Shown: positions 1-62,720 of the stretch, in pieces | How the letters are laid out: each line of letters begins with the position of its first letter | How positions within the stretch are numbered: position 1 is the first letter of the stretch | Program-made: the position numbers and the translations under genes | The notes under the pieces: model-generated | What the model saw: the letters and a program-made list of their open reading frames with translations, nothing else | The model's database searches: none | What the model was told of the DNA's origin: nothing | IMG/VR virus record: IMGVR_UViG_3300017917_001342 | Coordinates: 183,669 to 247,668 of that record | DNA: 64,000 bases | Source: a virus | Direction: 5' to 3' (one strand)

Positions 1-768
1 ATTGTTGCTGCTAAGCGTTTCTATCATGAACCCATGGCAGGTTTCAGTATTCCTGCTGCTGAACACAGCACTATGACTAGCTGGGAACGCGATCACGAAG
101 TAGATGCGTATGCAAACATGATTGATCTCTATGCTAAGCCTGGTGCACTGTTTGCAGTTGTTAGCGACAGCTATGACTTTTGGAATGCTGTTAGCAACAT
201 CTGGGGCGAGCAACTGCGAGAACGTGTGATCAACAGTGGTGCAACACTGGTAGTGCGTCCTGATAGCGGTGATCCTACTACTGTGCCTGTTAAAGCTATT
301 CAGTTGCTTGCTGAAAAGTTTGGTTACACTGTAAACAGCAAAGGTTACAAAGTTCTGCCTAGCTGTGTGCGAGTGATCCAAGGTGACGGTATCACACTGG
401 ACAGCATCAAAGTTATCATCAAGAATCTCACTGATGCTGGCTTTGCTATTGACAACCTTGCATTTGGTATGGGCGGCGGACTTGGTCAGATGGTCAACCG
501 TGACACACTGAAGTTTGCACAGAAAGCCAGTGCTGCTAAAGTCAACGGTGTATGGCGCGATGTCTACAAAGACCCCGTAACTGACCACGGTAAGCGTAGC
601 AAGCGCGGTCGTCTTGCACTGGTACGTGACCGTGGACACTGGGAAACTGTACGCGAAGAAGATCGCATGGGTGTTGATTACCTGGAACCAATCTTCTGCA
701 ACGGCGAACTGCTGCGTGACCAAACCTTTGCAGATATTCGCGCTCGTAGCGAAATTGCACAAGACTAA
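1..768 (+). CDS. nadV: Nicotinamide phosphoribosyltransferase (NAMPT/NadV), C-terminal part, cut by window edge
   Basis: Joins nicotinamide to PRPP to make NMN, the entry step of nicotinamide salvage. The frame is open from base 1, so the start lies outside the window; about 255 residues are visible against roughly 490 in the family, and the ATG at 34 is internal. The blocks PAAEHST, VVSDSYD, VRPDSGDP, NSKGYKVLP, VIQGDG, FGMGGGLGQ and KRSKRGRLAL occur in the order and spacing of human NAMPT and bacterial NadV. The RPDSG and GGG segments belong to the substrate site of the family. A hairpin terminator follows. With pnuC (5968) and the nadR-like gene (6623) it gives a nicotinamide-to-NAD route. 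Identification is firm. Confidence 0.95.
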   Translation: MVAAKRFYHEPMAGFSIPAAEHSTMTSWERDHEVDAYANMIDLYAKPGALFAVVSDSYDFWNAVSNIWGEQLRERVINSGATLVVRPDSGDPTTVPVKAIQLLAEKFGYTVNSKGYKVLPSCVRVIQGDGITLDSIKVIIKNLTDAGFAIDNLAFGMGGGLGQMVNRDTLKFAQKASAAKVNGVWRDVYKDPVTDHGKRSKRGRLALVRDRGHWETVREEDRMGVDYLEPIFCNGELLRDQTFADIRARSEIAQD

Positions 769-26091: not shown

Positions 26092-27120
26092 ATGCGCTTC
26101 GCTGAATTGCAACCTCACACTCAATTCAGCGAAGCTGCTCTCAACTCTGTAACACAGCGTTATATTGATTCACACATAAAACACTTACTATACAAAAAAG
26201 ACCAGTATGGTCCTCGTAATGTACGTAAAGTTGTTGAATTCTTAACTGATTTACAAAATCGTTTTAAACGAGATGGCGATCCCACTACATTTGAAATCGC
26301 CGAAGTACTTGAACCATATAGACAAGATATTATAAAGTACTTGTCTAATTTGTTTGATGGTGTACCAGACAGTTATACGCCTGTATTTCAAGCAGCTATA
26401 TTAACTAATAGTGGTGTACACTGGCCGGAAATAGTTGAAATATTTGAGCCTTATCGAGAACCTATTATTAAAAGAATACTACAAACTGTGCGACACGGTT
26501 ACAGAGACAGTGATGTAGATTCTTGGGTGACAGCATTACGAGCAATTGGGGTTGATTGGCCAGAAGTAGATATCATAGAACGAAGCCGAAACGCTAGTAA
26601 ACAAATCGATGAAAACAGCTTAGTTGCTGATTCGCATAGACAATATATGCTTGATAATATTAGAGACCGTCGGTTTCATATTATCTTTTCACAATTAATC
26701 ACCTATTTCAAACCAGATCCAGTTATTGCAGATGCATTAACTAAAAACAAATCTGTTGTGCTGCAATACATATCCGATGCAATTAAGAACGGGTATTTCT
26801 TAGGTGCTGCAAAATATCTTGTTGGTTTGCAAAATGTTGGTGTTGCGTGGCCGGAACTGGAAAACATTAAAACTGCAATAAAAGTACCGTGCATAACTCG
26901 TATGCTAACAATACTAAAAAAGTCTGATTACGATAGAGACCATCTGACAAATATATTAGAAACAATAAAGTATTTGAGAAAAGCTGGACTTGATTGGCCT
27001 GAGTTAAAAATTATCAACGACGCAGCCGAAACGGAACTTGATTATCATCCCGAAGATGAAGAAGAAGAATACATCGCAACTGATGACGATCGCGGCGACT
27101 ACTACAGAGATCTCTATTAA
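26092..27120 (+). CDS. WPEL-repeat polyprotein
   Basis: 342 residues, all helical. The tag MRFAELQPHTQFSE|A would be cut after E14, and an internal IDE|N lies after E174. There are two WPEL pairs: VHWPEIVEI and VDWPEVDII (136 bases apart) in the first piece, VAWPELENI and LDWPELKII (145 apart) in the second. The C-terminus is very acidic (PEDEEEEYIATDDD), a feature shared with head core proteins. No enzyme motif. Confidence 0.85.
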   Translation: MRFAELQPHTQFSEAALNSVTQRYIDSHIKHLLYKKDQYGPRNVRKVVEFLTDLQNRFKRDGDPTTFEIAEVLEPYRQDIIKYLSNLFDGVPDSYTPVFQAAILTNSGVHWPEIVEIFEPYREPIIKRILQTVRHGYRDSDVDSWVTALRAIGVDWPEVDIIERSRNASKQIDENSLVADSHRQYMLDNIRDRRFHIIFSQLITYFKPDPVIADALTKNKSVVLQYISDAIKNGYFLGAAKYLVGLQNVGVAWPELENIKTAIKVPCITRMLTILKKSDYDRDHLTNILETIKYLRKAGLDWPELKIINDAAETELDYHPEDEEEEYIATDDDRGDYYRDLY

Positions 27121-44050: not shown

Positions 44051-44085
44051 TTATGCCGTGTAAGTTTGATGCTTACACGGCATAA
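44051..44085 (+). terminator. Perfect 14-base inverted repeat, terminator or promoter-associated
   Basis: TTATGCCGTGTAAG (44051-44064) and its exact complement (44072-44085) with a 7-base loop. No T-run follows; instead the right arm ends inside the late-promoter core at 44083. Confidence 0.6.
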
Positions 44086-44114: not shown

Positions 44115-44981
44115 ATGGCTAATTTTCCATTGAGAGCAATACCGTCGCTTAAGACTTATCTTAAAGAAGCCGACGAAGATAAAAAGACTAAAACTGCAAC
44201 TGCAACGGACACAGACGATCTCAAGAAGATGTTTGAGCCGCAAAAAGATCAACCAATTGCCAAAGTTGACAAACCGGGTGAAAAATCATCAGAAACTCCA
44301 AAAGCTGATGCACCAAAATTAAAGGCTGCATCTGCTGCGGATACTGCCCGTGCAATGCGTGGCGTCAGTGCTACAGACGACATGCGAGACATGCTGAGCA
44401 GGATGAATGTGCCAGACGAACTGGTAGACCGCGAACCGGAACTTGATAAAACCGATGGCGAAGAACCAAAGCCACCAACTCCAAGCGATGTACCTGCTGT
44501 TATCAGTCGTGCAATTGCTACAACTGATCCTAATGCAGTGGATCCAAAATTCCATCAGGTTAAGAATCTACCTGGTTACATGAGCCGCGCAATTCGTGCA
44601 ATGGGTCGTGAAACATTTAAGAACTATACAGATACACCAATTGAAGAAATCAGTGTTATTGCTAATCTAGGCGGACAGGGTCCAAACAGTGAGCGAGAAC
44701 TCAACGGTGTATCAGCTTGGCTCAAGCACAATGCAAAAGAAATTGACAAAGGTACACTTGACTTTGGTCAGATGATGCCAGGATATCAAGCACAGACTAT
44801 TCGATTCTCTACACAGGGTGTGCAGTTCCTTGTTGTGCGTGACTTTGCAGGTGGTTACATATATGCATGGCCAGAAGGTGCGGCAGGTAACGAAATAGCA
44901 GGACCTAAATCAACACCTGCATTAGCTGCACCTAGCGACGACGATGATTTAGAGTCGCTAATGAAAAAATACGGAGTCTAA
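44115..44981 (+). CDS. Probable internal head protein
   Basis: 288 residues. Near the start, PSLKTYLKE|ADED looks like the head tag (cut after E18), placed a little deeper than in the other proteins. Residues 19-150 are Lys/Asp/Pro-rich and disordered. Residues about 155-265 form a folded domain (NLPGYMSRAIRAMGRETF, GVQFLVVRDFAGGYIYAWPEG) I cannot name. It has an acidic C-terminus. Its late promoter and following bidirectional terminator make it a single-gene late unit. Confidence 0.8.
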   Translation: MANFPLRAIPSLKTYLKEADEDKKTKTATATDTDDLKKMFEPQKDQPIAKVDKPGEKSSETPKADAPKLKAASAADTARAMRGVSATDDMRDMLSRMNVPDELVDREPELDKTDGEEPKPPTPSDVPAVISRAIATTDPNAVDPKFHQVKNLPGYMSRAIRAMGRETFKNYTDTPIEEISVIANLGGQGPNSERELNGVSAWLKHNAKEIDKGTLDFGQMMPGYQAQTIRFSTQGVQFLVVRDFAGGYIYAWPEGAAGNEIAGPKSTPALAAPSDDDDLESLMKKYGV

Positions 44982-54314: not shown

Positions 54315-54340
54315 AAAGGGGGTATAAACCCCCTTTTTTT
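54315..54340. terminator. Bidirectional terminator
   Basis: AAAGGGGG / CCCCCTTT with a six-base loop; seven or more Ts on the plus side and a T-rich tail on the minus side. It ends the nitroreductase transcript. Confidence 0.85.
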
Positions 54341-55037
54341 AAGAAATAACTTCTACGTCTATGTGTTTTTCTTTTGACGTAAAGATTTCGTCCGGATACA
54401 GGTGGTGTTCACGACGATTGCGTTCTTCGTCTTTGAATCCGATCCCCATGATAAGCAGTATGTTGCCTTTTACACCTAGCAATTCTTGAACTTTTGCTAC
54501 GTCAAAACATTGGCAGCAACCTGTTGAGTAACCCATGAGTGATGCAGTGAGGTTCATATAACCTGCTGCAATACCAACTGCAATAGAACGATCTCGCTTG
54601 TAATCTTCTGACAACATAGTAACAAGTTGTTGCTTGTCATTGTCGTAATATTCAAGATGCAAACCTGTTACACGTTCGCTCATCACCTGGTGATATGCAG
54701 CCGCTGCGGGACTGTGTTCTAGGTCTTCGGCATTGAAATCTTCTACTAACACAACTAATAGATTTGCTAGTAATTGTGCCTGAGTCTTCATGCTGAATTC
54801 GCTAGTGTGTTTGTTAACCACACCGCCCAACATAGAAGTGTCATGAATTTGTCTAATAAGGTCTCTATTTGTTACAAATATAGGTTTATAAAATGTAACG
54901 TTTTGCTTAGACGGGCATTCAGTTACAGCAGTCTTAATTACTTCTAGATCTTCTTCGGGGATTGATTTTGAGAGATCCCAATTGCGTTGGCAACGCTGGC
55001 TGCGACGCACTGCCTTTATCAATGTTGTGTTATCCAT
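54339..55037 (-). CDS. Nitroreductase-family protein
   Basis: 232 residues. An early RRSQR motif binds the FMN phosphate in this family; SIAVGIAAGYMNLTASLMGYSTGCCQCF and LLIMGIGF are the conserved C-terminal half. The protein is slightly long and would bind FMN and use NAD(P)H. Possible link to the NAD block at the other end of the window. It is preceded by a late promoter and GAGAGG, so it is probably expressed late although it lies among early genes. Confidence 0.85.
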   Translation of the reverse strand: MDNTTLIKAVRRSQRCQRNWDLSKSIPEEDLEVIKTAVTECPSKQNVTFYKPIFVTNRDLIRQIHDTSMLGGVVNKHTSEFSMKTQAQLLANLLVVLVEDFNAEDLEHSPAAAAYHQVMSERVTGLHLEYYDNDKQQLVTMLSEDYKRDRSIAVGIAAGYMNLTASLMGYSTGCCQCFDVAKVQELLGVKGNILLIMGIGFKDEERNRREHHLYPDEIFTSKEKHIDVEVIS

Positions 55038-55071
55038 AATAACCTCTCTTTCATATACAGGTCTGGCTAGA

Positions 55072-55077
55072 TATTTA
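55072..55077 (-). promoter_or_regulatory. T4-type late promoter candidate
   Basis: Minus-strand TAAATA in GCACTAAATATCTA, 34 bases before the ATG at 55037. Confidence 0.6.
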
Positions 55078-55113
55078 GTGCGCAGTTATTTAAATCTGAG
55101 GTTATTATCACAA

Positions 55114-55845
55114 TTAGAGCAAATATTTTTTTATCAGAGATTTTACTTTGCCTGCAAAGTTTTGTTTCTCTTCTCTAGTACTCATAGTGTCTATTAGATG
55201 TTTAGATTCATCGTAGAATTTATATGCACGGCTAAACAATCTATTGTATTGACGCTGTCCTTCGGGACCTTCTTGGAATAAACCGCGCCCTAGTTTTTGA
55301 TTAGATAATGCAAGTCTTATGACTTCTTTTGATTCCTGTGCAGTACCTACACGGCCTATGGTTTTTAAACTTTCCATTTCGCCATTGACGATATCAAGCA
55401 ATGCCTGTGCAAAACGTGCATTGATTTCCTGCGGTTGTCTTAGATAGGTTTTATATGAATCATCATCACTTTGACGTCGAAGTGCTTTGCCTCGACTTTT
55501 GTAATCATCTAATGCATGTTGTATCTCGTGTGTAAGCACACTGATCAACTCGGTTCTATAATGAACAAGCCGGCGATCTAATGACACAAGATTGTATCTT
55601 GGATCATACCAACCTACTACGCCCTTTTCTGGTTTATGTAGTGCAAATTGTAATTGCTGATCGAACAACAGGTTAATCATATAACCAGAATAGAACTGCG
55701 GCAACGCCCCCGGCATTTCGCTTAGTGTTACAACGTGTTTTGGTTTATTTTCAATTAGCCAATCAGCAACGTATTTAGAAATACGTAGTAGATCTACGCT
55801 GTCTTCAGTGGCTTCATCTAGTGTGTCGAATTCAAATATGCGCAT
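55114..55845 (-). CDS. Tagged zinc metallopeptidase-like protein
   Basis: 243 residues. LTHEIQHALDDY gives H-E-x-x-H at about residues 110-114, and QPQEINARF about 28 residues on offers a third-ligand Glu, so this is gluzincin-like. The N-terminus MRIFEFDTLDE|A carries the head-tag signature with a cut after E11. A second HExxH module is inside the protein from 17686, so two packaged peptidases are suggested. It has no ribosome site; the ATG lies five bases after a late-promoter core, inside an inverted repeat. Confidence 0.8.
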   Translation of the reverse strand: MRIFEFDTLDEATEDSVDLLRISKYVADWLIENKPKHVVTLSEMPGALPQFYSGYMINLLFDQQLQFALHKPEKGVVGWYDPRYNLVSLDRRLVHYRTELISVLTHEIQHALDDYKSRGKALRRQSDDDSYKTYLRQPQEINARFAQALLDIVNGEMESLKTIGRVGTAQESKEVIRLALSNQKLGRGLFQEGPEGQRQYNRLFSRAYKFYDESKHLIDTMSTREEKQNFAGKVKSLIKKYLL

Positions 55846-55869
55846 GCTGATATTTAGTCAGCATGCGCA
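55839..55869. repeat. Perfect 12-base inverted repeat enclosing a late promoter core
   Basis: TGCGCATGCTGA (55839-55850) and TCAGCATGCGCA (55858-55869) flank a 7-base loop. On the minus strand the loop and arm junction spell CTAAATATC, and the downstream arm contains the start codon of the metallopeptidase (55845). Confidence 0.85.
55851..55856 (-). promoter_or_regulatory. T4-type late promoter candidate, leaderless arrangement
   Basis: Minus-strand TAAATA followed by TCAGC and then ATG. It is the third example of exactly five bases between core and start codon. Confidence 0.6.
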
Positions 55870-55878
55870 CACTTTTGA

Positions 55879-56253
55879 TTAACCAAACTTGGCTTTGAGA
55901 CGTTCGTATTCGGCACGTTCACGTTCTGCTTGTTCAGCTTCGCGACGTTTGATGTCCTCGATGCGAGCGTTGTACTCTTCATCGGTTTCCATACGCTTAC
56001 CAACAAACTTCCAAACGATACGTTCACCGTCGTAGTCATTTACCCAGTCTTTGTCAAGCTTGATGTCTTTGAACTTGTCGCCGTAATCCTTGCGGATTTC
56101 TTCAACACGAGCAACGATTTCGTCAAGTGTGTAACCATCCCAATCCATGGTTACTTCAATAAACACTTTGCGACCAAAGCTGGTGTAATCCTCACCAAGG
56201 CTCGCTGTGATTTCTTTGCGATCCATTTCATTTACTTTGCGAGCCTTGGTCAT
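55879..56253 (-). CDS. Hypothetical protein with charged C-terminal helix
   Basis: 124 residues. An alpha-beta N-terminal part (KVFIEVTMDWDGYTLDEIVARV) and a Glu/Arg-rich coiled-coil tail (KRREAEQAERERAEYERLKA). AGGAG precedes the ATG. Function unknown. Confidence 0.75.
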   Translation of the reverse strand: MTKARKVNEMDRKEITASLGEDYTSFGRKVFIEVTMDWDGYTLDEIVARVEEIRKDYGDKFKDIKLDKDWVNDYDGERIVWKFVGKRMETDEEYNARIEDIKRREAEQAERERAEYERLKAKFG

Positions 56254-62692: not shown

Positions 62693-62720
62693 AACATAAC
62701 ATTTGTTGCAGCGTTGTCAA
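62693..62720 (-). promoter_or_regulatory. Early promoter, cluster type
   Basis: Minus strand GGTTGACA, 16-base spacer ending TGT, TATGTT. It probably drives the operon from 62657 to 58872, in which no other such promoter was seen. Confidence 0.75.

Follow-up and report, generated by a model that had tools for sequence, protein, structure and literature searches.

We found that the start codon of a putative metallopeptidase gene in a jumbo phage lies within a perfect palindrome that carries a late promoter core in its loop. We propose, with a probability of about 0.7, that the corresponding RNA hairpin is a temporal switch on the translation of a late gene, working on the same principle as those of T4 e, soc and I-TevI but in a leaderless form. 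A single 31-bp element (55839-55869 of the window, the whole 64,000-nt stretch analyzed here) would then combine a late promoter, a predicted start site and a translational lock. The source record, 518,643 bp long, belongs to a jumbo phage related to T4. By its T4-type DNA polymerase, the nearest named relatives are Agrobacterium phage Atu_ph07, Sinorhizobium phage Phosso, XaC1, CBB and RaK2. The phage also has a gene for a homologue of gp55, the late sigma factor (phrog_234 match, E=6.6e-22).

Read on the minus strand from 55869 to 55839, the element consists of TGCGCATGCTGA, the 7-base loop CTAAATA and TCAGCATGCGCA. As the earlier note had described, the two 12-nt arms are exactly complementary (12/12 bases paired) and the ATG (55845-55843) lies within the downstream, 3' arm; TAAATA (55856-55851) lies within the loop. 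Once G-U pairs are included, the minus-strand RNA forms a 17-bp stem that covers the AUG (55834-55874; -26.6 kcal/mol, z -7.3), and none of 200 shuffles was as good. Two such pairs favor the coding strand at this gene, although the hairpin class overall has no sense/antisense asymmetry, and we therefore set strand bias aside as an argument for an RNA role. When the flanks of TAAATA were dinucleotide-shuffled 5,000 times the longest perfect stem obtained was 10 bp, and 9 of 20,000 shuffles equaled the pairing between the 71 nt 5' of the ATG and the gene's first 12 nt. The phage genome has no second copy of the palindrome, even with up to 3 mismatches allowed, and the exact sequence is absent from the viral_contigs collection. 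No match in Rfam reached the gathering score of any family.

The controlled gene (55114-55845, minus strand) encodes a protein of 243 aa with an HEIQH motif. Its distant PA5oct-like relatives align from residue 1, which supports the ATG at 55845 as the start, and no Shine-Dalgarno site is found 5' of this ATG. The predicted structure of the protein had a mean pLDDT of 42, too poor for use. The HEIQH protein is distantly akin to PA5oct gp104/gp105, which are annotated as virion proteins seen by mass spectrometry. Among viral contigs, bacterial genomes and 30 relative records, no relatives of the gene and its upstream neighbor were near enough for covariation analysis.

The earlier note had guessed that the loop holds a late promoter, and this is now supported by the enrichment and strand bias of its core. 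Among hexamers in the 70 nt that precede genes, none is as enriched as TAAATA (13-fold in 304 kb of genome), which outranks the Shine-Dalgarno words, and in 503 kb we counted 95 copies in the sense orientation 5' of genes versus 21 antisense. The nameable genes behind TAAATA are late in kind, namely tail fibers, a virion protein family and a holin-like protein. Since the canonical T4 late box TATAAATA is absent from the window, we took TAAATA as the promoter motif. The box of the peptidase gene is GACTAAATA, which has AC in place of TA at the first two positions of TATAAATA and matches it in the TAAATA core. The jumbo-phage promoters resemble the T4-type late promoter (PMC2988020) in their core, in the presence of a gp55 homologue and in their location before late-type genes. 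They differ in that the box is looser at its first two positions and in that they fall into two spacing classes, one of them leaderless.

In T4 the 8-bp late box starts at -13 (PMC2988020), which makes TAAATA occupy -11 to -6. If the start codon lies 11 nt from the first base of TAAATA, it therefore begins at +1. By this geometry the predicted +1 of the peptidase late transcript is the A of the ATG (55845, minus strand) and the message is predicted to be leaderless. The suggestion of a leaderless message thus holds up as a prediction from the 11-nt spacing and the lack of a Shine-Dalgarno site. We found that the distance from TAAATA to the start codon is bimodal, either 10-11 nt or about 21-40 nt, with almost none between. 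Three related phages carry TAAATA at 10-11 nt before 22, 11 and 13 genes and at 12-20 nt before only 1, 2 and 3, with a second, broad mode at 21-40 nt; gene starts came from a simple purpose-written caller that gave no bonus for the 10-11 nt spacing. The short spacing occurs at 6 and 2 genes in two records that are more distant, and at none in T4 or in the examined stretches of Atu_ph07 and Phosso. Counts of TAAATA-N5-ATG are near background in Phosso, CBB, RaK2 and T4, and slightly above it in Atu_ph07. Among 69 orthologue pairs the leaderless spacing is present in both members in 12 and in one member in 13.

Leaderless mRNAs exist in bacteria and phages, for example that of lambda cI. The peptidase gene resembles them in its predicted 5'-terminal AUG, its -10 element about 10 nt upstream and its lack of a Shine-Dalgarno site, but differs in that it is tied to a phage late-sigma promoter and a start-codon hairpin. 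Phage transcripts are often leaderless, according to a remark in PMC5312081, and we found no leaderless late message from a T4-type promoter in the literature searched. Judging from these sequence patterns we lean, less firmly than for the peptidase hairpin itself, toward a clade of T4-related jumbo phages with a leaderless late program, in which about a fifth to a quarter of the start-proximal late promoters would fire at the start codon. A subset including the peptidase gene would add the loop-promoter hairpin, so that the start codon could be read only from the late message. If this is true, late expression in the clade would change promoter and mode of translation initiation together.

According to the proposed mechanism, read-through transcripts from upstream would hold both arms, and the 17-bp hairpin would hide the AUG and prevent early translation. 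The late sigma factor of the phage would then fire the promoter in the loop, and transcription would begin at or beside the A of the AUG. Such a late message would contain none of the upstream arm and only some of the downstream arm, which would leave the AUG free at the 5' end for translation as a leaderless mRNA. In the modeled read-through RNA the AUG is paired with a probability >0.99. In RNA modeled with the AUG at its 5' end, the A is free (0.97), the next two bases are partly paired and the structure is weak (-4.5 kcal/mol). As in the T4-type switch, then, a stem covers the start codon in read-through RNA, and the position of TAAATA in the loop would yield a late RNA without the 5' arm, given a +1 inferred from T4 geometry. 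The earlier note had a hairpin gating the leaderless message. The leaderless part of that idea stands, but the direction is reversed: a leaderless message without the upstream arm cannot fold the hairpin, which is possible only in transcripts that read through from upstream.

A possible source of such read-through is a sigma70-type promoter, TTGACA-16-TATGTT (62693-62720, minus strand), at the head of a co-directional gene run. Promoters of the form TTGACA-16..18-TANNNT occur before genes of this phage 35 times in the sense and 7 times in the antisense orientation, and are likely its early class. No strong coding-strand terminator was called between the promoter at 62720 and position 54336, and the genes there are co-directional. 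Two terminator-like sites were called on the minus strand from 64 to 50 kb; one is weak and the strong one is a hairpin 3' of the nitroreductase gene (54315-54336). We infer the exact +1, the read-through into the peptidase gene and the effect on translation. Read-through RNA would in any case give only weak translation from an internal AUG that lacks a Shine-Dalgarno site, and the lock may therefore matter mainly against re-initiation after the stop codon of the upstream co-directional gene (55879-56253, minus strand), 4 nt 5' of the extended stem. A ribosome halted there could momentarily open the base of the stem, which counts against the lock.

In T4, hairpins control the late translation of e, soc, 49, I-TevI, I-TevII, I-TevIII and segB, and the same is true of mobE of Aeh1 (PMC3014915, PMC2988022). 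For e, soc and I-TevI, late transcripts without the 5' arm are described (PMC3014915, PMC2988022). The peptidase gene is like these genes in that a late promoter is located in or next to the 5' portion of a start-sequestering hairpin, and in that the late RNA would lack the 5' arm. It is unlike them in that the promoter core forms the apical loop. The messages of the T4 hairpin genes also have a leader with a Shine-Dalgarno site, whereas the peptidase message has its predicted +1 at the AUG and no such site. Because no Shine-Dalgarno site becomes exposed on its late transcript, we regard the peptidase switch as a variant, not a plain member, of the T4 type.

We asked how often such pairing recurs by scoring how well the start region pairs with the 71 nt that precede the predicted +1, relative to shuffles, with 0.01 as the threshold for passing. 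As a positive control, T4 soc, I-TevI, I-TevII and segB pass the test. T4 e, 49 and I-TevIII fail, and the test thus misses some known cases. Three jumbo phages gave 14 passes among 194 promoter genes and 6 among 600 control genes (p=2e-5), and an independent set of four other jumbo phages gave 15/145 promoter genes versus 11/400 controls (p=6e-4). For the seven phages combined the figures are 29/339 and 17/1000 (p=4e-8). The excess persists against swapped upstream regions and against controls matched for intergenic gap. This would extend a textbook timing switch of T4 to jumbo phages, in which it recurs, including the cultured Atu_ph07 and Phosso, and also before a holin-like gene. The leaderless genes as a class show no clear enrichment for hairpins (3/47 pass at 0.01), and a scan of leaderless sites for the exact loop form gave two 12-bp cases, while shorter stems were hardly in excess. 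Reciprocal orthologues taken together show no significant hairpin conservation; orthologues of switch genes generally do not retain a detectable hairpin, which indicates that the trait turns over.

The same hairpin form is present at gene 497300-497812, of the virion protein family, which reads TTGTGTGCCATGTA-TAAATATC-TACATGGCACACGA with TAAATA in the loop, the ATG in an arm and the 11-nt spacing. Four relatives with about 73% identity retain the promoter, the spacing and the hairpin in different letters. Across the gene and these relatives 5 of 14 pairs are changed on both sides, which 0 of 500 shuffles reach and for which slid controls give 0-1. Since the compensatory changes come mostly from one branch, we consider this evidence good but not overwhelming. 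The conservation of the arms that had been proposed as a check on the palindrome is thus found at this equivalent leaderless gene. A third example is the gene that follows the DNA polymerase in L049, with a 15-bp hairpin of this form (-21.9 kcal/mol). The version in L020 is weaker, and the G002 orthologue combines a leadered promoter with a different hairpin over its ATG. A holin-like gene (phrog_3427; L184:2762-3316, plus strand) with a TAAATA promoter recalls the control of the T4 lysis gene e. The start-region hairpin differs among this gene, its G002 orthologue and its G025 orthologue, and only that of G025 passes the shuffle test.

The earlier note had also offered the palindrome as a terminator, an operator or a cruciform, and we consider each of these less likely than the switch. 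The hairpin begins 4 nt past the upstream stop codon, the opposite strand matches the terminator pattern, and long hairpins abound in the genome, many of them with A/T tails; all three points would fit a terminator or 3'-end stabilizer of the upstream gene that overlaps the next gene's promoter by chance. However, an intrinsic terminator has a GC-rich stem followed by a U-tract, and on the coding strand the stem is followed by UAUUUGAA, which is not a U-tract; the terminator-like call is on the opposite strand only. Moreover, the positions of ATG and promoter match a geometry that recurs in other genes, with covariation in one, and we therefore think a terminator unlikely. An inverted repeat centered with perfect symmetry on a promoter could also be a DNA operator at which a dimeric repressor blocks the late promoter, for instance by autoregulation, and I-TevI is known to repress its own late promoter (PMC2988022). 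We give this reading slightly less weight still, because the palindrome is single-copy in the genome and because the arms of the equivalent gene change in their letters while complementarity is kept, which favors a structure over a fixed recognition site.

It could also be argued that the palindrome arose by chance over an ordinary leaderless late promoter and has no effect on timing, since the majority of leaderless genes have no such hairpin, or that it forms a cruciform in DNA. That possibility appears to us as improbable as an operator: the 12-bp flanking stem was not reached in the 5,000 shuffles, the same geometry is seen again in other genes, and nothing supports a cruciform. We therefore retain the timing switch as the preferred reading of the peptidase hairpin.

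A candidate second switch lies directly downstream, before a nitroreductase-family gene (54339-55037, minus strand). It has perfect arms of 11 nt on the minus strand: the 5' arm ATAATAACCTC (55098-55108) precedes the gene and the 3' arm GAGGTTATTAT (55036-55046) covers the Shine-Dalgarno site and start codon. Two TAAATA boxes (55092-55087 and 55077-55072) occupy the loop on the same strand (55072-55092), so that in the region 54339-55108 both lie between ATAATAACCTC and GAGGTTATTATG. The start region is almost fully paired in the modeled read-through RNA and only partly freed in the late RNA. In the close relative L101 (1-2120) the peptidase gene and its upstream neighbor are missing and a different gene occupies the place before the nitroreductase gene. 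There the 11-nt upstream arm is absent and a terminator-like hairpin precedes the nitroreductase promoter, beyond which a shorter complementary stretch, TAACCTC, is found.

Two further perfect inverted repeats of 14 bp were seen in the window. In gene 26092-27120 one (26096-26135) begins 4 nt past the ATG, and no TAAATA is nearby. The 3' arm of the other (44051-44085) enters the TAAATA promoter of gene 44115-44981, the orthologues of which in other contigs have hairpins over the start codon instead.
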